NCBI GenBank assembly: GCA_002706085.1
Contig: PAJO01000039.1
Span: 11,817-48,129, forward strand
Length of the DNA stretch: 36,313 nucleotides
Direction of reading: 5' to 3'
DNA from: Alcanivoracaceae bacterium
GTDB taxonomy: Bacteria > Pseudomonadota > Gammaproteobacteria > Pseudomonadales > Alcanivoracaceae
Part shown: positions 23,365 to 35,880 of the stretch, piece by piece
Numbering within the stretch: position 1 is the stretch's first letter
Layout: each line of letters starts with the position of its first letter
Position numbers and translations under genes: made by a program
The notes under the pieces: model-generated
Databases searched by the model: none
Seen by the model: the letters and a program-made list of their open reading frames with translations, nothing else
What the model was told of the DNA's origin: nothing

Positions 23365-24237
23365 ATGGCCTGGTATTCATCTGATTCCCCCGACTCTGAG
23401 CCAAACCACGTTCAAGTAAATAATTACCCCGATAGCATCCAAGCAGAAACTCCTCCGCCACCGAAGAATATTGAGCAAATTTCGGAGCGAATAGAAGAGT
23501 CAGCACGTCTATTTAACTTCAAAAGCCTAACATTCTGGTCTGGCGCGGCTCTTTTAGTCTTAGCTCTATCGGTTAAGGCGGGAGAAGCCTTTCTTATTAT
23601 CTTTGCCTTCTGGGTTCCCATTCACATCATCACAAGAAGATGGGACAAAGAACGTCGGTTCATTAAAATTAGCTATGATACAGGCTCACTTCCGGAACAT
23701 TACCGATCACTAATCCGTTCTTTTGGATTCCTGGAAGAAAACCATAAGCTATGGACTTTAGATAGATCCGAATCAATTTTCGGCTTTCATGAACAAAAAC
23801 GGCATGCGGGGGCCAGTTCACTGATTGATATGAGTCGTTGCAACGTCGGGAAACCCCCTCCGCCCTGGATCAGGAGCAACATAAACTTTCCCTCACTACA
23901 CACCAAGCAGGGATCATTCTATTTTCTTCCCGAGGGGATACTGCTTTTTAACGGCCTCAAGATCGAGCCACTCAACTATAGCGATGTAAAGCCCAGTTAT
24001 AGCTTTGAAAGCGTGATTGATGAAAATCCGCCAGAAGATGCCACGATCACAGGGAAAACCTGGAAGCACCCAAACAAAGACGGCAGCCCAGACAGACGGT
24101 TTTCTGTGAACTATCAAATCCCAATTTGCCTATACGGAAAGGTCATTTTCAAATTCGGTCCAGATATCAAGATCGAAGTAGTCACCTCTAAAAAGCAATC
24201 AGGAAAAGATTTCTACGAGTCTTACCTAAAGTCTTAA
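23365..24237 (+). CDS. Conserved hypothetical membrane protein
   Basis: 290 aa; function not recognised. A Pro-rich polar N-terminus (residues 1-45) leads to a hydrophobic hairpin around residues 53-90 (FWSGAALLVLALSV, then FLIIFAFWVPIHIIT), followed by RRWDKERR, so the soluble ~200-residue C-terminus is probably cytoplasmic. That part has the segments GSFYFLPEGILLFNG, YSDVKPSYSFESVIDENPPEDA and KTWKHPNKDGSPDRRFSVNYQIPICLYGKVIF, which recall a conserved but uncharacterised family. GGAG precedes the ATG. The gene is convergent to the DUF4011 helicase and shares a hairpin with it. It is visibly richer in A+T than its neighbour, a sign of separate acquisition. A link to the defence genes is possible but unproven. 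Confidence 0.7.
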   Translation: MAWYSSDSPDSEPNHVQVNNYPDSIQAETPPPPKNIEQISERIEESARLFNFKSLTFWSGAALLVLALSVKAGEAFLIIFAFWVPIHIITRRWDKERRFIKISYDTGSLPEHYRSLIRSFGFLEENHKLWTLDRSESIFGFHEQKRHAGASSLIDMSRCNVGKPPPPWIRSNINFPSLHTKQGSFYFLPEGILLFNGLKIEPLNYSDVKPSYSFESVIDENPPEDATITGKTWKHPNKDGSPDRRFSVNYQIPICLYGKVIFKFGPDIKIEVVTSKKQSGKDFYESYLKS

Positions 24238-24288: not shown

Positions 24289-27200
24289 CTACTCTTGTCG
24301 ACTCCTATCCAGCTGAGTTCGCAGTGCAGCATCCACCTCTTCCAGAGCCTTGCTTTTATTAGTCCACCAATCCGTTGACCACACCCTGAACAGGGTCCAG
24401 CCTAGCCCCTCCAGCACACCCTGGCGGATCTTGTCCCGTTCGCGCGCATACGCCGAACTGTGATACATGGCACCGTCACACTCGATGCCTGCCAGATAGA
24501 TGCCCGGTTTGTCGGGGTGAACAATGCCCATGTCGATGCGGTAGGCAGAGACGCCAATTTGGGGATGCACTGTCCAGCCTTTTTCCTGTAGCCCTCTAGC
24601 CACGGCCACTTCGAAGGGGGATTCAAAGTCACCCATGGAGCCGTGTACCGCCGCGCCCAAGGCGGAGGCACCACGTTCAGCGTATTCCAGGAAGTGCTTG
24701 AGGTCCGCCACGGCGCGTGCCTGGGTGCGGGCCAGATCAATACGTTCCGGCGGCATGGTGGAGAACACCACCATTTCGGAACGGGCGCGGGTCATGGCCA
24801 CGTTCAAGCGGCGCTCACCACCGGTACGGTTGAGAGGGCCGAAGTTCATGGTGACGTGACCGGCTTCATCCGGACCATAGGTGATACTGAACAGGATCAC
24901 ATCCCGCTCATCCCCTTGCACGGTTTCCAGGTTCTTCACGAACACCGGTTCCAGCTCGTCCTCGGAGAAGGCCCATTCGATGCCCGGGTCTTCCGCTCTT
25001 GCCTTATCAAGCAGATCCTCAATCAGACTCTGCTGCTCGGTATTGAACGTCACCACCCCAATGGACTGGCTACGAACAGCGGGGTCGTCTGAAGTCAATC
25101 GACGCACGATCTCCGCCACGATGGCCTTGGCCTCACCTTGGTTATGACGCGCCTTGCCTCGGGCGTAGAAGCCTTCCGGTTTCACCAGTGACACCCCCTT
25201 GTCAGGGTGCACTGGCGCCGGGAAGGTAATCAGGGAGCTGTCGTAATAGCGGCTATTGGAGAAGGCAATCAGGCTTTCTCTTCGGGAACGGTAATGCAGG
25301 TTCAGCACGCGCTGGGGAATACTCGCACCGATCAGTTCATCCAGGATACTTTCCAGATCCCCCTCGCCGTCGATATCGCCATCCGGGTCATCATCAGAAC
25401 GACCAAAGAAGTTGGTGGGCGGCATCTGTTTCGGATCACCGGCCACAATCACCTGTTTGCCACGGGCCAGAGAGCCCACCGCATCCCACACGGTGATCTG
25501 GGAAGCCTCATCGAAAATCACCACGTCGAATTGAGCCTGCCCGGCGGACAGGAATTGCGCAATCGACAGTGGCGACATCATCAAGCAGGGGGCCAGCGTC
25601 GTGATCACGTCCGGGATGGTTTCCATCATTTCCCGCACCGGTTTGTGACGCATCTTCTTCTGCAGTTCATGCGCCAGCACGCCCCAGGACGATTTTTTCT
25701 TGGTGGTCTCCTGGTGCGGGATCTCACCCGCCAGATTTGCGGCAATATATTTCGCGGTCAGATCACTGAACCGGGTATCCAGCTCGCGGAAATTCTCAAT
25801 CGTCGCCTCATGCTCCGGAGAAGAGAAAGTACGCAGCACCTCATCCTCACCGATCACCGCCGACGACCACCAGCTGCAATAAGCGGCCTCGAAGACCTCT
25901 TCCACTTGGAAGGCGGGCACAGAGCCATTTTCGATGGCTTCGACCAGCGGGCCGAGCTGGAAGTCCAGTGCCTCGGAGCGACGGCGCACCCAAGCACACC
26001 AATCCCGCAGGGCGATGTGATGATCGATAATTTCCTGACATTGCACGCCCAGAGACTCAAGGGCGGCCACACCTTCAGGCAATCGACCATCCAGCGAGGC
26101 ACCGATCAGTGCTTCGAACTTTTCCTTGTTGGCAGAGAAGGCTTCGAAGGCCGCCTTGAAATCATTGATGGTTCGCCCCACTGGCGCATCCGGTGCCAAC
26201 AGGTCGTTGGCATCATAAAGCAACGTGCGAATCTTGCCGCGCAGGGTCGCCAGGGATTCCGCATCATCTGCCAGCTTGCCAACCGCAACACGAGCCCGTG
26301 AACCAAGCGCCTTCAGCGCGGCCATGGCGCTGGGGTCTGAATTATAGGAATTCCATTCCCGCAGGCCTTTCAGCACGCCATCGAGACGGTCGATATGGCC
26401 ACCGGTTTCCCGCAACTGTTTCAGCACGGGAATATCATTGATGGGGTCCGGATCACCCTGCGCCCCGCCTTCCCGCATTTGCTTGACGACCTTGCGCTTG
26501 GCAAACCAGCTCTTGGGCCACCAGGTGTCATTGGCTTCCGCCCAGGCTTGCCCCAGCACCGCCGCATTCAGCTTCTGCCAGGCCAACGGCTCATAGGTGC
26601 AACTCAGCTTCGCTTGCGTCTCAATGTAGGCCTTCAACTGTGTGACGGCTTCTTCCAGCGCATCCAGTCGATCCGTTGCATCCGGCTCCAGCGCAAAAGA
26701 GGCCGGCTGGCGGTAGGCGTCCAGCAAGACCTGACCACACTCGGCCATGGCAGCCAACTTGGCCAGGCTCACCACACCCAGGCTGATGCCCAGGGCTTTC
26801 TCAAGCGACGCCAATTTGTCGGTCAACTGCGCCCCACTGACTTTCAGGCTGCGGGCGGCACCCACCACCTCTTCTTCCCACTGAGGCCGCCAGTCAAAAT
26901 TGCTGATCAATGCCAGTGGGTGGTCTACCAGATTACCCACGGCCTTGGCCTGAACAGCCAGCAACTCAGCCATTTCACGCAGCTTCTGCAGTTGCGCTTC
27001 GTCGTGATAGGCCGCATTTGGCCAACTCAGCTTCACCTTGGCCGCTAGGTCGGCATCACGCACCTTTACACCGATGGCATAGTGCGCCGTCAGGCCATTA
27101 CGGTGGCGTTGATGCAGGGCATTCACCACTCGGTTCAGGCGGTCACGCAGTGCCTTTAGCCGTTCCGCCTCGGCCTTCCAGTCACTGACCGTGGACTGGG

Positions 27201-29508
27201 AAGCGCTATTCCAGGAGGTGCGCAGCTGATCCAGCACATCAGCCTTCCTGGCTTTGTTCGAGTGCAATTCAAGACAGAACTGGCCCAGGCCAATATCCTT
27301 GAGACGCCGGTGCACCACCTCCAGTGCGGCAGTCTTCTCGGACACAAACAGCACCTTCTTGCCCTTGCCCAGCATGTGCGCAATCAGGTTACCGATGGTC
27401 TGGCTCTTGCCGGTACCCGGAGGGCCAATAATGACGAAATCCTTGCCCCTGTCCGCCGTGGCAATGGCCGCCATCTGGGAAGAATCCGCCGGCAACGGCG
27501 ACAGCAGATCTGCCGGGGTGTATTCCTGGTCAATCTCCTTGGGGTCAACAAAGCGAATGTCGCTCTCATACGCCTCACGCGGCGTATCCAGCAGGTGCCG
27601 CACCACCGGGCTTTCTTTCAGCGCCTCGGAGCGATCCACCAGATCCTTCCACATCAGGTACTTGGCAAAGGAGAAGTGACCCAGCACCACCTCTTCCACC
27701 ACCTCGAATCCGGGTACTTCCTTGATGGCATGGCGCACCCGATTCCAGATGCCCGCCACATCCACACCACTGTCGTCCTCGGGCAAGGCACCGCTGAGGC
27801 CATGGATCTCGATACCGAAGTCCTTTTTCAGCAGCTCCAGCAAGGTGGTGTTGAAACGGGGCTCATCATCATTAGCCACCATTTTCACGCCACTGCGCAC
27901 AGACTTTCGCTCCAGAGAGACAGGCAGCAATATCAAAGGCGCCCGGTAGCGGCGATTATCCTTGTCCTTGGGCTTCCACAGCAGAAAACCCACTGCCAGA
28001 AACAGGGTGTTGGAGCCGCCTTCCTTTAGCGACGTCTGCGCCTTTCGGTAAATTTCCACCGCCCGCTTGTCCAGATCGTCCTGGGTCAGCTCCACCAGCA
28101 CCTGCTTCTTGGCCAGGGCATCACGGGCATACACTTCCTTCAGCTCTTCGCCGGTACGCTGACGGTGAATATCCGAATCCTGATCTTGGGTCTTTAACTG
28201 AGGGAAAGGCGCAATGGAAATACGCGCCCCGGTGGCCAGCACATCTTCCAGCTCACCGGGCTCATGGCACACCAGCGTCAAACTGCTTTTACTGGGCTTC
28301 TGATTCAGCAGCGGATTTCGCGCAGACAGATCCAGCAGCTTGCGCTGCCAGCGCTCAAGGCGACCACCCGGCGTATCCTCGGGCACATCCTCTTCCACAT
28401 GCACTGTGGCTGATGGCAAATCTACCGGCGCATCCTCCAGGCCCGGCTCGACCACACCCTCAACATCGGCTGGCTCGGCAAGCCCGGCAATCTGCGGCTT
28501 CAGGCTAATGGGATTGATACGGTGCGCCCGCGCCCGGCGAATATCGATAGCGGCGACAAATTCATTGTCCTTATCCAGCGCCACCTGCTTGTTGCCGTCT
28601 TTCACCGCCTGGGAGAAAGGTGGCGCTGGGTGATTGGTCAGGAACGTGGTTTCAATCAGGATCAGTTCTTTCAGGGGAATGCGCTGGCGCAGGGTTTCGG
28701 CCTCATCCACCACCACACTGGATAGGTCTTCCTTGTCCAGCCACAGCCCCACCAGCGCATGCCCCTGGGTAAGAATCACCAGCGGGTTCAACTGCGCTTG
28801 CTCAAGTGCCGCCGCAAACAACAGGGTGGTATCCAGGCAGGTGGCCACCTTGGCGCTTTCAATCTGGTTGGGCAGGCGGATTTTCTGGCCATTACTCTCG
28901 AAACTGGCGGGTGGCAACGCATAACCCACCTGCATTTTCACAATGGCGGAATAAATGGCCGACGCCATCAGCCACACCTGCTCACGGCTGCCAGAATCGT
29001 AGCCATTGATGCTGCCCGACTTACCCGCCTTGCGCAGAATCTGGCTGGCCTGGCCCAACAACCGGTCCACCGCCGGATCGTTCGGCGTGCAGAACGCCGC
29101 CAGCAATTCAGGAATATAGGTAGCTCCGCCCCACTCATTACAGGCCAGCAACTCCACCGGGATCACCAACTCGGCCAAGCACTGCTCAGCTTGGGTGACT
29201 CGAATCGTCACCGTACCGCGCATGGATTCCGTCAGCCCCAGCAGGAAACCGCCATTCAGCTCCAGGTCACGGTCCTTCATGGCCAGCAGACCACCCGCCG
29301 CCAACCGGTCAACCGTCCAGGTCTTCGACTTCACAAACGCCGGGGAGGCTTCTAATGTCACCGCCAGGTCTGACAGATCCTGCTCTTCATCCAGATTCTC
29401 GATCTGCAATTCACGCAGCACGGCAAAGGCGCTCTGGTGGCAGGCGAAGTTGATCTTCTCCACCAGAGTGGTGTGGATTTTTATTTTTGACGTTTCCTGG
29501 TCAGACAT
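24289..29508 (-). CDS. DUF4011/SF1 helicase/Vsr-like nuclease, antiphage-type (Hhe-like)
   Basis: 1739 aa. The N-terminal ~370 residues include a transglutaminase-like stretch (Cys224 in TCLDTTLLF, His250 in GHALVGLWL). ERWQRKLLDLSARNPLLN near residue 385 marks DUF4011. SF1 helicase motifs follow: Walker A GPPGTGKS at 695-702, DEAS at 1333-1336, GDPKQMPPT at about 1356 and RRLNVAMTRAR at about 1566, with a long helical insert between. The C-terminus has a PD-(D/E)xK-type Vsr/DUF559-like nuclease: E1633, D1659, then E1676-C-D1678. DUF4011-helicase-Vsr proteins were reported as a single-gene phage defence named hhe; this one probably unwinds and cuts invading nucleic acid (inference). G+C looks higher than in the other island genes. 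The start follows TAGGGATTAG. Confidence 0.88.
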   Translation of the reverse strand: MSDQETSKIKIHTTLVEKINFACHQSAFAVLRELQIENLDEEQDLSDLAVTLEASPAFVKSKTWTVDRLAAGGLLAMKDRDLELNGGFLLGLTESMRGTVTIRVTQAEQCLAELVIPVELLACNEWGGATYIPELLAAFCTPNDPAVDRLLGQASQILRKAGKSGSINGYDSGSREQVWLMASAIYSAIVKMQVGYALPPASFESNGQKIRLPNQIESAKVATCLDTTLLFAAALEQAQLNPLVILTQGHALVGLWLDKEDLSSVVVDEAETLRQRIPLKELILIETTFLTNHPAPPFSQAVKDGNKQVALDKDNEFVAAIDIRRARAHRINPISLKPQIAGLAEPADVEGVVEPGLEDAPVDLPSATVHVEEDVPEDTPGGRLERWQRKLLDLSARNPLLNQKPSKSSLTLVCHEPGELEDVLATGARISIAPFPQLKTQDQDSDIHRQRTGEELKEVYARDALAKKQVLVELTQDDLDKRAVEIYRKAQTSLKEGGSNTLFLAVGFLLWKPKDKDNRRYRAPLILLPVSLERKSVRSGVKMVANDDEPRFNTTLLELLKKDFGIEIHGLSGALPEDDSGVDVAGIWNRVRHAIKEVPGFEVVEEVVLGHFSFAKYLMWKDLVDRSEALKESPVVRHLLDTPREAYESDIRFVDPKEIDQEYTPADLLSPLPADSSQMAAIATADRGKDFVIIGPPGTGKSQTIGNLIAHMLGKGKKVLFVSEKTAALEVVHRRLKDIGLGQFCLELHSNKARKADVLDQLRTSWNSASQSTVSDWKAEAERLKALRDRLNRVVNALHQRHRNGLTAHYAIGVKVRDADLAAKVKLSWPNAAYHDEAQLQKLREMAELLAVQAKAVGNLVDHPLALISNFDWRPQWEEEVVGAARSLKVSGAQLTDKLASLEKALGISLGVVSLAKLAAMAECGQVLLDAYRQPASFALEPDATDRLDALEEAVTQLKAYIETQAKLSCTYEPLAWQKLNAAVLGQAWAEANDTWWPKSWFAKRKVVKQMREGGAQGDPDPINDIPVLKQLRETGGHIDRLDGVLKGLREWNSYNSDPSAMAALKALGSRARVAVGKLADDAESLATLRGKIRTLLYDANDLLAPDAPVGRTINDFKAAFEAFSANKEKFEALIGASLDGRLPEGVAALESLGVQCQEIIDHHIALRDWCAWVRRRSEALDFQLGPLVEAIENGSVPAFQVEEVFEAAYCSWWSSAVIGEDEVLRTFSSPEHEATIENFRELDTRFSDLTAKYIAANLAGEIPHQETTKKKSSWGVLAHELQKKMRHKPVREMMETIPDVITTLAPCLMMSPLSIAQFLSAGQAQFDVVIFDEASQITVWDAVGSLARGKQVIVAGDPKQMPPTNFFGRSDDDPDGDIDGEGDLESILDELIGASIPQRVLNLHYRSRRESLIAFSNSRYYDSSLITFPAPVHPDKGVSLVKPEGFYARGKARHNQGEAKAIVAEIVRRLTSDDPAVRSQSIGVVTFNTEQQSLIEDLLDKARAEDPGIEWAFSEDELEPVFVKNLETVQGDERDVILFSITYGPDEAGHVTMNFGPLNRTGGERRLNVAMTRARSEMVVFSTMPPERIDLARTQARAVADLKHFLEYAERGASALGAAVHGSMGDFESPFEVAVARGLQEKGWTVHPQIGVSAYRIDMGIVHPDKPGIYLAGIECDGAMYHSSAYARERDKIRQGVLEGLGWTLFRVWSTDWWTNKSKALEEVDAALRTQLDRSRQE

Positions 29509-29622
29509 GGCTAATCCCTAAAAAATTGTATCCCCAAGATCTTCTCTCAGAAACTCAGAGCTTTTGTGGCTTGCTATCTCATTGCTTTGAAGCACTAATC
29601 TTTGAAACCGCGCCAAGCCGCT

Positions 29623-30474
29623 TTAACGTACGCTTAAGGCACCGACAGTGGGCTCAGAAATGAGGGCCATTGTCATACCAAGTACGGAAAGTGCCTGGGA
29701 TCGTGTAAACGCCTCCCTTCCGTGCCCCCCGAGTTGACATACATTCTTCAACTGCTCTCTCAGACTAAGCAAACGCTCAATGGACGTCATGTCTTTACGC
29801 GAGTCACTATGAGCCATACGATTTGCTGCCGCAGCCTCACGTTTGTCACCACGCTGCTCCTCTAGCCACTCGATAATATGACGACATTGCATGACCGCAT
29901 CCTTGTAATGGCCAGTTTCAATGAACCCACGAGCCTTGGTAAGAAGGCTTTCAATATCAACATCAGAAGCAGGCAAGGGAATTTCGTACAGAACAGTTCT
30001 GCAGAACCCTGATGAGCTCAATGCCTTCAGCCAGACCTCTCGAGGAACAACCACTTCAGATCGCTCATAACTACGCTCAAGACCGGACGAGGAAGACAGC
30101 AAAGCCTTTAGCGTTACAACCAGTTTAAGATCTCCATCCTGACGAATTTCTTCGATTGCATTAATCTGCTCTAAAGTCAGAACCGCCTCAAAGTGAAAAC
30201 TCTCATTGCCATTGGAATACTGGGATGTCTGGCGAAGCGAGTCAGCATAAGGAATTGAAGGGACAATAAACCTGGATCCCTCAGAGTTATGTAGCCCTAG
30301 CTGAATGTCGAATATGTCGACATTTCTCTCGGATCCAGGACTGCTTCCTTTAAGAGAAAAAACCAACCCACAACCAGACACCGCCTTTCGGCCTTGTACA
30401 TCCAAACGGTCAAATTCAATAAGGTATCTGCCGCTATCCCTAATCGATAATCTCAACTCAGCCTCTTCACTCAA
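29623..30474 (-). CDS. Uncharacterised protein between two helicase-nuclease genes
   Basis: 283 aa; no family recognised with certainty. The first ~170 residues read as alternating beta strands (RYLIEFDRLDVQGRKAV, KLVVTLKALL, EVVVPREVWLKAL). The remainder is helical: ESLLTKARGFIETGHYKDAVMQCRHIIEWLEEQRGD, then a charged part and SIERLLSLREQLKNVCQLGGHG-REAFTRSQALSVLGMTMALI. The last part looks like a TPR- or HEPN-like helical bundle; the Arg and His that a HEPN nuclease would need are not clearly placed. Gaps of 114 and 100 bases separate it from the helicase genes on either side, all in the same direction. A sensor, adaptor or effector role in the defence-like cluster is inference. Confidence 0.7.
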   Translation of the reverse strand: MSEEAELRLSIRDSGRYLIEFDRLDVQGRKAVSGCGLVFSLKGSSPGSERNVDIFDIQLGLHNSEGSRFIVPSIPYADSLRQTSQYSNGNESFHFEAVLTLEQINAIEEIRQDGDLKLVVTLKALLSSSSGLERSYERSEVVVPREVWLKALSSSGFCRTVLYEIPLPASDVDIESLLTKARGFIETGHYKDAVMQCRHIIEWLEEQRGDKREAAAANRMAHSDSRKDMTSIERLLSLREQLKNVCQLGGHGREAFTRSQALSVLGMTMALISEPTVGALSVR

Positions 30475-30546
30475 TATAAATTTGACTACTTACTTAATAC
30501 TGCGACAAGTCGCCACCTTTACGCACTAAACATTCCGGATGTCTGG

Positions 30547-30561
30547 CCATGCGCAGCATGG
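30547..30561. repeat. Small hairpin after the SF2 helicase gene
   Basis: CCATGC-GCA-GCATGG, a perfect six-base stem, lies 14 bases beyond the helicase stop in the 100-base gap before the 283-aa gene. No U-tract follows in either direction, so it may be an attenuator or processing site rather than a full terminator. Confidence 0.4.
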
Positions 30562-30574
30562 ATAGTTAACCGAA

Positions 30575-33500
30575 TCAATCTGAACCTATCACCGATAGAT
30601 CTGCCAGAGTCGTCTTCTTGATATAGAGAGCAGTACTTCCAAGAAGCTTGAGCCCTTCATCATTGATCCTATGAATACTTAAGCCAGGCTGAACAATTTC
30701 AACATGAAAGCCAAGAGGCATGGTGCGAGATTTATCGCGGATTGCGGCAAGATCTTTGATAGACCCCTTGAGGAAACGCGTATATCCGTCAGCGCGCCAT
30801 TTCTCATCACGCCGCTTAATATGATGATAAAGGTAATTCAGGTTTAGGTGTTTCCATCGCACACTTCGCTGAGCCTGACCACAAACCTCGTAAAGATCCT
30901 TCAGTCGAGCACCGGGCTCATCACCACCAGAGTATTTTAAATGGACTAGAGATAATAGGATTCTGTCATCTAACACCTTCAATGCAACCAAGTCAGCTGC
31001 TTCCCCAGGTCCATCGTCATTTATAATAAGATCGTAATCGTCGACAATATGCTTGAAGTAGTTCCACTGGATGGAAAGATCGTTCTTATCTCTCCCCATT
31101 GACTCGATACGAATATCCGTTCCGCCCCAGTCGAATGGGACAATATCATCCTTTCTGTGCAACCCTACGTTTTCACTCACGCGGACAATCTGTGCATTGT
31201 AGGAAAACGCGCTGTCAGCGTAATGAACCGTGAATGGATCAGAAATCATGTACTCAGGCAAGGGGATTGCTCCTGCCGATCCCTTACTAATGGCAACCTC
31301 CGGCCCATCAACTAATATGTAGTCATAGCCCTTAGTATTTACCTCATTGCCAACAACGATCTTATAAACAGAGCGCAACGTATTAGAACCAATTGCAACT
31401 CGAACACTTCTGTCTTCATCTTGCCCGTCTACTTCTAAATCCACCTCATAGAGCGGGACCGGGACATCACCAAATAACACATCGACTTTATCTTCGAAGG
31501 CATTAAACAGCTGCTCACCAAACTGCACTGAGAGGGGGTAACTGGGATGCGGGCCATTCAAGCGCTCAGGCCTTAGAAAATTACGAACCAGGTTGTCAGC
31601 ATTTGGCTGGTCAGCAGCAACTTTATCCCAGGCTTTTCTGACCCAATCACACCAATCTGCGATAGAGCCACGCTTTTGCGGCGACCACACCTTTCCTTTC
31701 CGCTGAGAGCAGCCCCAAACCACCCGGTTTCCGAATTCGTACCCTAGAGCCGCAATATTGCTCAATGTTGAGCGTTCTGACTCGATGAGTGACAGCCCCT
31801 CCGTCACATTAGGCCCGAAGTATTGCGTAAAACTAATAGCGCCTTCTTGTGCAGTTCCGAGATTTCTCGCCAGTGGGTACTCAATGTCGTTAAAAACATT
31901 AAAAACTTGATCCCCTGTAAGCAACTCGCACTGATCTTGAGTTATTGCCTCAGCCAAAGACTCTACACGAAACACCTTGTAGTCATTCGAAAAAATGAAG
32001 AGGGCTTTTCGATCTTCGTCCCAATGGGCAATGAGTAGTTTAAAGTTGGTGTCCCTAAGATCTTTATAGGACCCCCACTTTACCGGCGCGGACTGGATTG
32101 CGAGCACAACCAGCATATTTTCATCGTCTGAGATGGCATGCCAACATTCATCAAATCTTGGCAGATTCTCAGAAAAATTATCAGGAGCCCAGGAATCACA
32201 TGAAGTCCGAAAAAGCATGGCGGAATATGAAGGCTCAAGATTCCATAACGATATTTGGTTATGTAAATCCCCTTTCTTCTTCAGCGAATCCACTACTTCC
32301 TGGAGTCGAACCTCACGCTCAATGCGATTCTCAGACAATCGCCTCAAAACACTATCCCAATCTGCACCCTGGGAGTACAGATTTTGCAGATCACCTTCCA
32401 CTTCTGGATCTGCGACATTCATGACAACACTCGCTTTACCCAAATTTTGATTGTGGCTGACCCTGGTAAAGCGTCCAATGAACTGGAGCGTTACAGCCAG
32501 GCTTTTGTGATGGTTATGTAATGCTGCAACTTTCAAATTGGGCAAATCATAGCCTTCACCTAACATATCCACGCAAATGACGATCTTCGAGTTTCCCAAC
32601 AACAACCCTTCAAGTCGCCTTCGGATCTCTGGCTTTCCGTAGGTCGAATGTACGACGATTGGATTCAAATCAGCAGCAATGTTCTCATAAACTGAGAGAA
32701 GAGCCTCAGCTTTTGACTTGCTTGAAGTTCGAGCCATCATCAGATGATCAAGCCCTTGCGCAAGATCCTCCCGCAAGCGCTGCACCGCCACTTCCGCTAT
32801 TTTAGTGTCAATCCGGTCTTCGTAATATTCCTCGACCGGCAGGAGATCTACATGGGTGAAATAATTAGCCCGCTGGGCTTCACCCATGGTGTAGTTATAG
32901 ATAATTCGACCGCCCAAGGCTTTTTTATCATTTCGGAAAGGCGTTGCGGTAAACTGGATGACTTTTTTTCCTTTAAAGCGTTCACGCACCTCCAACCAGG
33001 ACTTGGCTGAAATATGATGAGCTTCGTCAACAAAGAGGTGAGAACAGCGTTCGCATAGTCGATCGACAGCCCTCACGTCACCAGCCGAAAGAGCGCCAGT
33101 AGTTGCAATGACAACATTCGCCGCATCGACCAAATTATCGGCCTCTTCGGGAGTTTTTATTCCGGACTTAATGGTTGCTACAGCCGGCAAATTTATGTCA
33201 CTAGGCACAACCCCCAGCTCCGGGAGATATCCTAAGTTTAAAAACTTGTTAGATATTTGGGTTCGGAGTGAATCCGACGGAACGACAACCAATACCTTTT
33301 CGCATTCCTGATAGACCATGGTTGCCAACATGGTCTCGGTTTTTCCCGTTCCGGTTGGCAGAACAACGGTTGCCGGCTCTATCTCTCTATCAGTAGCGAA
33401 GTATGCTGATATTGCATGCAATGCACCAAGTTGAGGGCGGCGAAGACCGACGAGGTCCTGGTCTGGATCCTCTTCTTTGAAATGGAACCGGCCAGCCCAT

Positions 33501-33856
33501 GATCTATTTATCTCTTGCGCGGAAAGCCCGGCAATTTCATTTGGGAGTCTTTCCCAGACTAGTGAAATTTCTGGTGACAGCTCAGCTATATCGAATGCCG
33601 TCTTTCCTTTTAAAACTGGCACATCGTCCGGGCAACGCCCTCCAACACCAGGTTTCTTTAGGTAGATATAGTCAAAAGGAGGATTCAGCTGGCATTCCAG
33701 CTTTAGATGCCCCTTGAATTCTGAATCTTTTACTAATGCGTCAACACGCCTCGATCTCACCAGCAGTCGCCGCACTGAATTACTTCCTACCTTCTGATTG
33801 CGAACAAGCTTTTCAGGAAGCGCCACAGTAACCTTTAGTGGTTCAAACAAATCCAT
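30575..33856 (-). CDS. SF2 DEAH helicase with C-terminal nuclease-like domain
   Basis: 1093 aa. After a ~150-residue N-terminal region come SF2 motifs: Walker A PTGTGKT at 167-173, DEAHH at 277-281, FTATPFRND shortly after, and QFIGRFTRV from residue 458. A long middle part (about 480-900) has no recognised domain. The C-terminus has GPGEAAD (949-955) and VHLKYSGG, giving D955 and H972-L-K974, a layout like a PD-(D/E)xK nuclease with His in place of the usual Glu; E952 is nearby. Helicase-nuclease proteins of this size are common in phage defence (Hachiman and Druantia have related helicases), but I cannot place it in a named system. AAGGGGGG precedes the ATG. Lower G+C than the DUF4011 gene. 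Confidence 0.85.
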   Translation of the reverse strand: MDLFEPLKVTVALPEKLVRNQKVGSNSVRRLLVRSRRVDALVKDSEFKGHLKLECQLNPPFDYIYLKKPGVGGRCPDDVPVLKGKTAFDIAELSPEISLVWERLPNEIAGLSAQEINRSWAGRFHFKEEDPDQDLVGLRRPQLGALHAISAYFATDREIEPATVVLPTGTGKTETMLATMVYQECEKVLVVVPSDSLRTQISNKFLNLGYLPELGVVPSDINLPAVATIKSGIKTPEEADNLVDAANVVIATTGALSAGDVRAVDRLCERCSHLFVDEAHHISAKSWLEVRERFKGKKVIQFTATPFRNDKKALGGRIIYNYTMGEAQRANYFTHVDLLPVEEYYEDRIDTKIAEVAVQRLREDLAQGLDHLMMARTSSKSKAEALLSVYENIAADLNPIVVHSTYGKPEIRRRLEGLLLGNSKIVICVDMLGEGYDLPNLKVAALHNHHKSLAVTLQFIGRFTRVSHNQNLGKASVVMNVADPEVEGDLQNLYSQGADWDSVLRRLSENRIEREVRLQEVVDSLKKKGDLHNQISLWNLEPSYSAMLFRTSCDSWAPDNFSENLPRFDECWHAISDDENMLVVLAIQSAPVKWGSYKDLRDTNFKLLIAHWDEDRKALFIFSNDYKVFRVESLAEAITQDQCELLTGDQVFNVFNDIEYPLARNLGTAQEGAISFTQYFGPNVTEGLSLIESERSTLSNIAALGYEFGNRVVWGCSQRKGKVWSPQKRGSIADWCDWVRKAWDKVAADQPNADNLVRNFLRPERLNGPHPSYPLSVQFGEQLFNAFEDKVDVLFGDVPVPLYEVDLEVDGQDEDRSVRVAIGSNTLRSVYKIVVGNEVNTKGYDYILVDGPEVAISKGSAGAIPLPEYMISDPFTVHYADSAFSYNAQIVRVSENVGLHRKDDIVPFDWGGTDIRIESMGRDKNDLSIQWNYFKHIVDDYDLIINDDGPGEAADLVALKVLDDRILLSLVHLKYSGGDEPGARLKDLYEVCGQAQRSVRWKHLNLNYLYHHIKRRDEKWRADGYTRFLKGSIKDLAAIRDKSRTMPLGFHVEIVQPGLSIHRINDEGLKLLGSTALYIKKTTLADLSVIGSD

Positions 33857-33981
33857 TTGCCCCCCTTACAGATCGCCGGAAAATGCTTTTGGCTTATTGA
33901 ATCAAATCCCTTTTCCCCTGCCTGTCCCGGCACGACACCCCTATGCACCGGGAGGCGAGGATCCATAATGCTTGGAGATTC

Positions 33982-34830
33982 TTACACATTGTCAGAATCC
34001 CAATGCTCTTCGCTCTCCGCACTGACATCGCTTTCATGTAGAAGCTCAGCCAGACGCTCTTGGTCCCTCTCGCTGAAGTCTCTTGTGGAGTACAAAACCT
34101 TCCCATCCGGCCCATCCAGCTTTTCCACCATTACGATAAAGACCGCATCAGCAGGGACATCCACCTTCCCCCAGTCAGAAAAGCGGTTCGGTGCCAGCGT
34201 CCAGGTGGCTTCCTCACCCGGCTCCAAGCCACCGGAAATGCTGTAATTGAATTGATCTTCATGCCAGGGCACGCTCCGATCAGGACTAGCGATGGTGCCA
34301 GAGAAATAGGCACGAGAGATGGCCTGATCCGTGCCGTTCTTGACCGTTAGCTCAATGATCGGCTGCTCGCCAAGGTATTGCCTTTCCCGCATATAGAAGC
34401 GAGAGCGAACCACCTGGAATTTGTCCAGTTGCTGTTTGGCCTGCTCAGCCTTTTCCCGCTTGGTAACGAGTTCGCGGATCTCAGCCAGTGCCTGCTCTTT
34501 CTCCCGGGCTTTGCGTTCGGCCAGGATTTCCTCTGCCTGGGCCAGCACCTGCGCCGCCGTCTTGCCGTTCAGGGCGTCGCGCATTTTGCCTTCCATATCT
34601 CCCGCATCAGCACCGCCATTGGCAAACAGGCTTTTCATATCGATCTGACTAAAGGCGATCAACTGAACCGCCTGATCAAAGTCTGACCCCTTCGCCTCAG
34701 GCAATGACTCCCTAACCTTGGCCACAGACTCTTTCATCTTGGCCTCACTGGAGGCATCAATGGTCGGATCAGAACAGCCTGTAACGGCCATGACCGCGAG
34801 GACCAGCATCAATAGTGCATAGACTTTCAT
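33982..34830 (-). CDS. Coiled-coil lipoprotein (DUF6694-like)
   Basis: 282 aa from MKVYALLMLVLAVMAVTGCSD; AAGGAGAAAACA lies directly before this ATG, so the earlier Met at 34848 is not needed. The lipobox is AVTGC. Residues 25-100 (SSEAKMKESVAKVRESLPEAKGSDFDQAVQLIAFSQIDMKSLFA) recall DUF6694 lipoproteins. Then follows a charged helix (KAREKEQALAEIRELVTKREKAEQAKQQLDKF) that should form a coiled coil, and a beta-rich C-terminal half (PIIELTVKNGTDQAISRAYFSG...). It faces the periplasm. It is the first gene of the leftward unit next to the divergent WYL regulator, 125 bases before the SF2 helicase. It may be a housekeeping lipoprotein beside the island or part of it. Confidence 0.78.
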   Translation of the reverse strand: MKVYALLMLVLAVMAVTGCSDPTIDASSEAKMKESVAKVRESLPEAKGSDFDQAVQLIAFSQIDMKSLFANGGADAGDMEGKMRDALNGKTAAQVLAQAEEILAERKAREKEQALAEIRELVTKREKAEQAKQQLDKFQVVRSRFYMRERQYLGEQPIIELTVKNGTDQAISRAYFSGTIASPDRSVPWHEDQFNYSISGGLEPGEEATWTLAPNRFSDWGKVDVPADAVFIVMVEKLDGPDGKVLYSTRDFSERDQERLAELLHESDVSAESEEHWDSDNV

Positions 34831-34902
34831 TGTTTTCTCCTTCGCCACTTTTCCCTAAGTCAGATGCGGCATCCTGCCGCTTTTGTCTCATCCATGATGA
34901 CA

Positions 34903-34966
34903 CCCAAAGGCTATGTGCTTATTATTGTCATGTTGATACTGAATACATTAACACGTCGCCTTTTGG
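34903..34966. promoter_or_regulatory. Long inverted repeat in the WYL/lipoprotein divergent region
   Basis: The arm 34903-34922 (CCCAAAGGCTATGTGCTTAT) and the reverse complement of 34947-34966 (CCAAAAGGCGACGTGTTAAT) agree at 15 of 20 positions, with 24 bases between. The pair sits in the space between the divergent starts at 34830 and 34993. WYL regulators of the BrxR/CapW group bind inverted repeats at their own promoters, so this is a candidate autoregulatory site. A TTGTCA at 34925-34930 within the spacer could be a -35 box, but no convincing -10 partner is clear. Confidence 0.5.
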
Positions 34967-34992
34967 CACATATCGTTTTTTGGAGCATATCC

Positions 34993-35880
34993 ATGGCACG
35001 GACTGCGGGCAAAAACGCAGCGGACTGGCCGCTGCGCTGGGATCTGTTATTGCGCTACAGACTGATCGAGGTGATCGCCCTCTGGGAGGGGAGACTGACG
35101 ACCAACCATCTTCAGCGGGCATTCGGTATTGGCAGACAGCAGGCCAGCAAGGACATTAACCACTATCTTGCTGAATATGCGCCGGGCAATCTGATTTATG
35201 ACCGTTCCCTCAAGGGGTACAGGCCATCAGAGCAGTTCAACCCGATATTCACTCGAGGCGAAGCTGATGAATACTTGCAGATGATGCATGCCAGGGAGGA
35301 TCTGAGCTGTGCTTTTGAAGCTTTGGATGTGCGCGAGCTCAATACTGAGGTTCTGCTTCCCCCCTCCCGGGATCTACGCCCCGCAGTACTGCGCCCGATT
35401 CTTCTAGCCTGCCGGGAAAACCTACGTGTGGAAATCCAATACGCCTCCCTGAGCAATCCGGAACCGGAATATCGGGTCATCCAGCCCCACACAGTGGTAC
35501 ACAGTGGTCTGCGCTGGCATGTCCGTGCCTGGTGCGAAAAAAATAGTGGCTATCGGGATTTTGTGCTTAGCAGAATTCAGGATGAACCGGACATCAGTCT
35601 AGCTGGAGAGCATGGCCCAGAGCAGGATACCGCCTGGCAGCAAACGCTAACGCTAGACATCATTCCCGACCCACGACTATCGCCGGCTCAGCAGGCCGTG
35701 ATTGCTCGTGACTATGGCATGACAAGTGGCGTATTGGCCGTTACGTGTCGGGCAGCCATGGCTAATTACATCGTGCAACTTCTACGACTGGATGATCAGA
35801 ATCACCGTGAGGCCATAGCCCAGCAGGTTGTATTAGGAAATCGGAAAGCAATCCAAAAGTGGCTTTGGAAAGACAACTAA
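34993..35880 (+). CDS. WYL-domain transcription regulator (BrxR/CapW-like)
   Basis: 295 aa from MARTAGKNAADWPLRW; GGAG at 34982-34985 sits seven bases before it, and the longer frame from 34864 adds a hydrophobic stretch that looks like translated promoter. Residues ~12-75 form a winged helix (LLLRYRLIEVIALWEGRLTTNHLQRAFGIGRQQASKDINHYL). Residues ~130-195 hold the WYL core (LRVEIQYASLSNPEPEYRVIQPHTVVHSGLRWHVRAWCEKNSGYRDFVLSRI). A C-terminal WCX-like part follows. Such proteins repress BREX, CBASS and other defence loci and respond to a nucleic acid or nucleotide signal. It diverges from the lipoprotein-helicase unit, the usual place for a regulator of it. Confidence 0.85.
   Translation: MARTAGKNAADWPLRWDLLLRYRLIEVIALWEGRLTTNHLQRAFGIGRQQASKDINHYLAEYAPGNLIYDRSLKGYRPSEQFNPIFTRGEADEYLQMMHAREDLSCAFEALDVRELNTEVLLPPSRDLRPAVLRPILLACRENLRVEIQYASLSNPEPEYRVIQPHTVVHSGLRWHVRAWCEKNSGYRDFVLSRIQDEPDISLAGEHGPEQDTAWQQTLTLDIIPDPRLSPAQQAVIARDYGMTSGVLAVTCRAAMANYIVQLLRLDDQNHREAIAQQVVLGNRKAIQKWLWKDN

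Follow-up and report, generated by a model that had tools for sequence, protein, structure and literature searches.

Several described defence systems lie close to the locus analysed here. Hachiman consists of two proteins, the HamA nuclease and the HamB SF2 helicase. PrrC is known as the guard of the type I enzyme EcoprrI, and the characterised BrxR/CapW proteins are the basis for expecting a WYL regulator to repress the operon that it faces. According to the main text of PMC9122601, BrxR homologues are found with BREX and with type I restriction-modification (R-M) systems, type I enzymes making up 34 of the 210 BrxR-associated systems (PMC9122601). The helicase-nucleases ProA (NCBIfam NF058533; PADLOC PDC-S37) and Hhe (NF042953) share an SF1 motor and a nuclease end.

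The window, the whole stretch of 36,313 nucleotides that was analysed, is part of a 48-kb contig of a 3.8-Mb genome of an Alcanivoracaceae bacterium. An initial annotation read five of its genes as a candidate undescribed defence cluster. All five open reading frames are present at the positions it gave, four on the (-) strand and one on the (+) strand, and the locus has the following features, in window coordinates:

24289-29508, (-): proA, 1739 aa, a DUF4011-SF1-MTES_1575 anti-phage helicase-nuclease (NF058533, 2101 bits)
29623-30474, (-): orphan accessory gene, 283 aa, TTG start; N-terminal beta-sandwich and C-terminal helical domain; mosaic
30575-33856, (-): SF2 helicase gene with a PD-(D/E)xK-like C-terminal domain, 1093 aa; ResIII and Helicase_C matches
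33854-33906, (-): second half of a scar, with the last codons of hsdS, its stop and a ribosome-binding site; precedes the SF2 gene
33904-34039, (-): first half of the scar, an hsdR leader to the probable hsdR start ATG; about 90% identity to G016
33982-34848, (-): DUF6694 lipoprotein gene, 288 aa (PF20404, E 1.1e-17), lipoprotein-like signal; first gene of the front end
34864-35880, (+), divergent: WYL-domain regulator gene (BrxR/CapW-like), 338 aa (PF13280, E 1.8e-14)

The lipoprotein and the divergent WYL regulator facing the cluster, both named in the initial annotation, are confirmed by the PF20404 and PF13280 matches. Its description of both helicases as having a nuclease-like end also holds, the end being of Vsr/MTES_1575 type in the 1739-aa protein and of PD-(D/E)xK-like fold in the SF2 protein. 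The remaining window genes that were scanned (ten and a TRAP transporter) have metabolism, transport or surface functions. Convergent to proA, positions 23365-24237 encode a 290-aa protein without a match in Pfam, PADLOC or NCBIfam at the limits used.

ProA and the distribution of the genes

The 1739-aa protein combines DUF4011, a split SF1 motor and a Vsr/MTES_1575-type nuclease end. It matches the ProA model with 2101.2 bits against a curated cut-off of 1500, and the match is nearly full length (residues 20-1738; model positions 1-1712 of 1903) and in the same domain order. The protein had been called Hhe-like; its domains were read correctly, but the Hhe identity is rejected with a score of 840.4 bits against a curated cut-off of 2000. 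The similarity to Hhe (E 3e-252) covers the SF1 motor and nuclease end common to both, which makes the protein a relative and not a member. No essential difference from the ProA family was found, the gene being here the last one of what is probably a type I island. The motor and nuclease motif strings that we chose to look for are present (Walker A at 695, DEASQ at 1333, ECDG at 1676). ProA of the window is 99% identical to that of G003 (genomes are designated G and loci L), with a dN of 0.009 against a dS of 0.12. Our guess is that ProA stands for "Prometheus", a system named in papers on Pseudomonas.

Among 193 relatives, ProA scores above the cut-off in 13, and in 12 of these it does so without the SF2 or orphan gene. 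Its surroundings were read in the window, G003, G016 and ten further over-cut-off loci, and also in G007, where the contig begins inside ProA; in the further loci the neighbours were compared with a small reference set that excluded Pfam. Type I genes precede ProA in G141, and a WYL gene and two other genes precede it in G018, while most of the other loci have no neighbour recognised with this small set. ProA is split over two frames in G178, and the contig ends within it in G040. ProA looks like a module of its own. We also note an 878-aa protein and a 374-386-aa partner encoded directly before proA in L082 (G018) and L084 (G036), with a WYL gene nearby in one of them.

The orphan (E ≤ 0.001) occurs in three of the 193 relatives and the SF2 gene (E ≤ 1e-20) in four, the latter having six matches in 389 genomes altogether. 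ProA overlaps with the orphan in one genome (Fisher p 0.19) and with the SF2 gene in one (p 0.25); the carriers are too few to give the test much power, and the gene contexts weigh more. Only the window's genome pairs an over-cut-off ProA with either gene. The orphan and SF2 genes reside together in two genomes, that of the window and G110, in the latter inside a type I operon. The co-occurrence check proposed by the initial annotation thus goes against its suggestion of one new system, since the genes do not travel together among these relatives; its caution that separate systems might adjoin each other is borne out by the independent distribution.

The WYL-lipoprotein front and the deletion scar

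The DUF6694 lipoprotein is 88-90% identical in six other genomes, and in all six the divergent WYL gene adjoins its gene as in the window. Similarity of the WYL regulator is 80-94% at five loci of the same genus and 71% in G041. The WYL domain itself (PF13280) scores 53.9 bits against a cut-off of 21.8, and the N-terminus gave only weak HTH matches in the Pfam scan (E about 0.1). Because four of the five complete relatives have 305-309 aa (the fifth has 338), the window protein perhaps starts about 30 residues inside the annotated frame. The divergent WYL gene adjoining a defence locus is a feature shared with the BrxR/CapW regulators; here, however, the DUF6694 lipoprotein follows the regulator in 7/7 close loci, the window included. 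The word "lipoprotein" is absent from the main text of PMC9122601.

The slot behind this front takes either a BREX or a type I core. The order hsdR-rmuC-hsdM-hsdS follows the lipoprotein in G001, where it was called by Pfam and PADLOC, and in G003 and G016, where it was called by similarity and, for hsdS, by tblastn; rmuC of G003 is only 31% alike. BREX genes follow it in G011 and G014 of the same genus and in G041 of a neighbouring genus (L028, L029, L117), as judged by BrxA, BrxC and PglX models in G011, BrxC in G014 and 30-40% similarity in G041. In G003 and G016, proA closes the island and, with the same front, encloses the hsd core. The cargo between hsdS and proA is different in each island: G003 carries ABC-3C genes; G016 encodes a HATPase, a Fic and a 181-aa protein; and G001 (L006) has AAA_13, the orphan, a further AAA protein and one of 291 aa. 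Behind the G001 cargo, only 50 residues of the ProA C-terminus (90% identity; L006 14711-14860) survive. A gene of the RmuC family is situated between hsdR and hsdM (L006 4504-6282, L007 1694-3589, L037 3023-4876), and its product in L006 matches the DRT-linked RmuC model of PADLOC. RmuC is reportedly also part of the Shield system.

The 125 bases that separate the lipoprotein gene from the SF2 gene in the window constitute a scar. Read on the coding strand, the sequence first tracks the hsdR leader of G016 (L027), with about 90% identity over 136 bases up to the probable hsdR ATG; L006 and L026 match 29 bases of this part too. The end of hsdS, with its last codons, stop and ribosome-binding site, comes immediately after the leader, the two halves overlapping by 3 bases. 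The hsdS part scores 43 against L037 (Marinobacter alexandrii) and 31 against L006 (G001), with none of 500 shuffles as good, and the usual hsdS tail can be read in two parts separated by a frame shift. Three of the five hsdS ends compared, those of L007, L026 and L027, match the scar no better than shuffles do, which is expected for a variable gene, yet is no proof. The joined sequences lie about 8 kb apart in L006; the window locus lacks hsdR, rmuC, hsdM and almost the whole of hsdS. The DNA match of the lipoprotein gene to close relatives ends near residue 269, and the last ~19 residues fall outside the matching stretch because the 3′ side of the gene is rearranged.

Elsewhere in the same genome, hsdM-like genes gave four matches, the best being 38% identical to hsdM of G001. 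Since the missing hsdM thus does not turn up at another place in the genome, misassembly is unlikely; these other, distant hsdM-like genes make a type I partner for the SF2 and orphan proteins possible. The 100-base gap between the SF2 and orphan genes was searched for AAA_13, which lies between the two in L007, and contained no trace of it. The closest relatives of the window's SF2 and orphan proteins are found in type I R-M operons with embedded accessories. In contrast to those operons, which require hsdR, hsdM and hsdS, the window keeps the hsdR leader and the hsdS tail.

The SF2 helicase-nuclease and the orphan protein

The AlphaFold model of residues 770-1093 of the SF2 protein (pLDDT 86) gave nuclease matches in the fold comparison. 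A helix-strand-strand-strand-helix core and its nuclease neighbours correspond to the PD-(D/E)xK superfamily fold. D948, E952, D955 and K974 are conserved in this domain, and H972 occupies the (D/E) place, giving HxK, in 16/16 and 10/10 rows of two alignments; the motor residues are conserved as well as the C-terminal ones. Unlike the separate HamA and HamB of Hachiman, the SF2 protein is one polypeptide with the nuclease at its C end. The HamB model matches it with an E of only 7e-4, over part of the motor, and no HamA was found among the six window proteins scanned with PADLOC, so that the two separate proteins of Hachiman are not present among them.

The SF2 gene is located directly behind hsdS in L007 (65% identical) and in E. 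coli, and in the same place with a split frame in Klebsiella (L040); in Vibrio, where it also lies behind hsdS, two genes separate it from hsdS. It also occurs without annotated hsd genes on seven plasmids, from Acinetobacter, Agrobacterium (two), Rhizobium, Phyllobacterium, Bradyrhizobium and Roseibium, as seen in the 12 of 168 matching plasmid records that were read and in a gene table that is incomplete. In E. coli, 15 of 5426 genomes have a match, 14 of them over most of the gene, and the best place was read in each of these 14, leaving out a second place in 52F4. The hsd core is broken in ten of the 14, with the SF2 frame open in all ten, and intact in four, with the SF2 frame split in one (H32). 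Nine of the broken cores share one deletion and the tenth is another event, so at least two events are represented. The upstream part of a plasmid SF2 copy is 99.97% equal to the broken E. coli type.

In the nine genomes sharing the deletion, the SF2 gene has 7 silent and 5 replacement changes. Under neutrality the P value for these 12 changes is 0.008-0.010 if rates are equal, rising to 0.044 under a sixfold transition bias, which is suggestive, though not strong, evidence for fewer replacement changes than neutral. In the window, the intact frames could be a sign of a recent deletion. A 421-aa protein, a possible partner, is encoded about 153 bases 3′ of the E. coli SF2 gene (L092 12435-13700 and relatives) whether hsd is intact or broken; it is split in L133.

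The 283-aa orphan is matched by no model of Pfam (E up to 1), PADLOC or NCBIfam (E up to 0.1). Because three of four aligned relatives begin at or near window residue 7, its real start may be the second TTG, at ~30456. Five relatives are found, two in G001 and one each in G110, M. alexandrii and strain IMCC1989. Four of them stand in type I operons, three right behind AAA_13 and one behind hsdS, and the fifth is right behind a GajA-GajB-like (Gabija-like) pair. An AlphaFold model from five sequences (pLDDT 72) consists of a beta-sandwich and a helical half. Relative to a G001 copy (L036), the N half is 44% and the C half 81% identical, and DNA identity along the gene climbs from about 0.45 to 0.91. 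Judging from this mosaic identity, the protein may combine a diversified half for recognition with a conserved half for docking. In distribution, the orphan is an uncommon accessory of type I operons.

Origin and possible functions of the locus

The stretch is probably a decayed, WYL-regulated type I R-M island of which independent modules remain. In its ancestor, a WYL gene would have been divergent from lipoprotein - hsdR - rmuC - hsdM - hsdS - accessory cargo - proA. A deletion of ~8 kb would have fused the hsdR leader to the hsdS end and brought the SF2 gene right behind the leader, from which it may be expressed. The SF2 and orphan genes, formerly regarded as additions that formed a new arrangement, would then owe their place to the loss of a type I core and not to the assembly of a new system. 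By analogy with BrxR/CapW, the WYL protein would repress the operon until infection. The SF1 motor of ProA would move along invading DNA while its Vsr-like nuclease cuts, and the SF2 protein may translocate DNA and cut it with its PD-(D/E)xK-like domain, HsdRMS not being needed. Most speculatively, the orphan might be a binding adaptor, with a diversified beta-sandwich to grip a partner and a conserved helical tail to dock on another, common partner.

It is highly improbable that SF2, orphan and ProA constitute one new multi-gene defence system, as the initial annotation saw it. The shared strand, the gaps of 100-125 bases and the single upstream regulator fit such a system, as do the SF2 and orphan genes standing two genes apart in one type I operon (L007, G110) and the orphan with a ProA remnant in the same hotspot of G001. 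The trio, however, is found only in the window, that is, in one of 13 ProA, one of three orphan and one of four SF2 genomes; a deletion scar accounts for the small distance to the lipoprotein; and neither gene was recognised beside ProA in the ten further over-cut-off loci (G040 ending within ProA).

The SF2 and orphan genes might instead be decaying debris of the type I enzyme, with a deletion too recent for stops and ProA as the sole working module. A neutral gene can remain open for some time, the SF2 frame is split in L040 and H32, and the closest SF2 relatives are in type I operons or beside their remnants. We regard this as unlikely, since the frame is open in every broken-core E. coli genome and the split E. 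coli copy is one of the four with an intact core, since plasmids carry the gene without annotated hsd genes, and since replacement changes are below the neutral level. Retention after breakage bears equally on the idea that the SF2 and AAA_13/orphan genes are guards that strike when a phage disables HsdRMS. Their position inside type I operons behind hsdS and a partial PrrC match of the AAA_13 neighbour in L006 (E 2.8e-12) agree with guarding, but we find it quite improbable: in the window and in E. coli the SF2 gene was kept after loss of the enzyme to be guarded, plasmid copies have no annotated hsd genes, and the orphan also stands behind a Gabija-like pair.

Within the decayed-island reading, we tentatively propose that the SF2 protein may belong to an undescribed single-protein defence family with an HxK nuclease, which would ride behind hsdS and on plasmids and protect after enzyme loss. 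It would then be a one-chain counterpart of Hachiman, a second defence layer that the deletion placed behind the WYL-lipoprotein leader.

In kind, the locus is ordinary, a defence island with interchangeable modules, in a hotspot whose WYL-lipoprotein front is followed by BREX in some genomes and by type I restriction in others. It is unusual in that a mapped deletion made a type I island look like a new system. That a tidy gene cluster can result from a deletion is relevant wherever new defence systems are called by neighbourhood. What may be new is the candidate SF2 helicase-nuclease, so far undescribed, which appears to outlive its restriction system; the remaining helicase-nuclease genes look whole and may be able to work alone. 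In the window, and through no fewer than two events in E. coli, the enzyme is broken while the helicase-nuclease is open; this amounts to a natural test of whether a gene inside a restriction operon needs the restriction enzyme.
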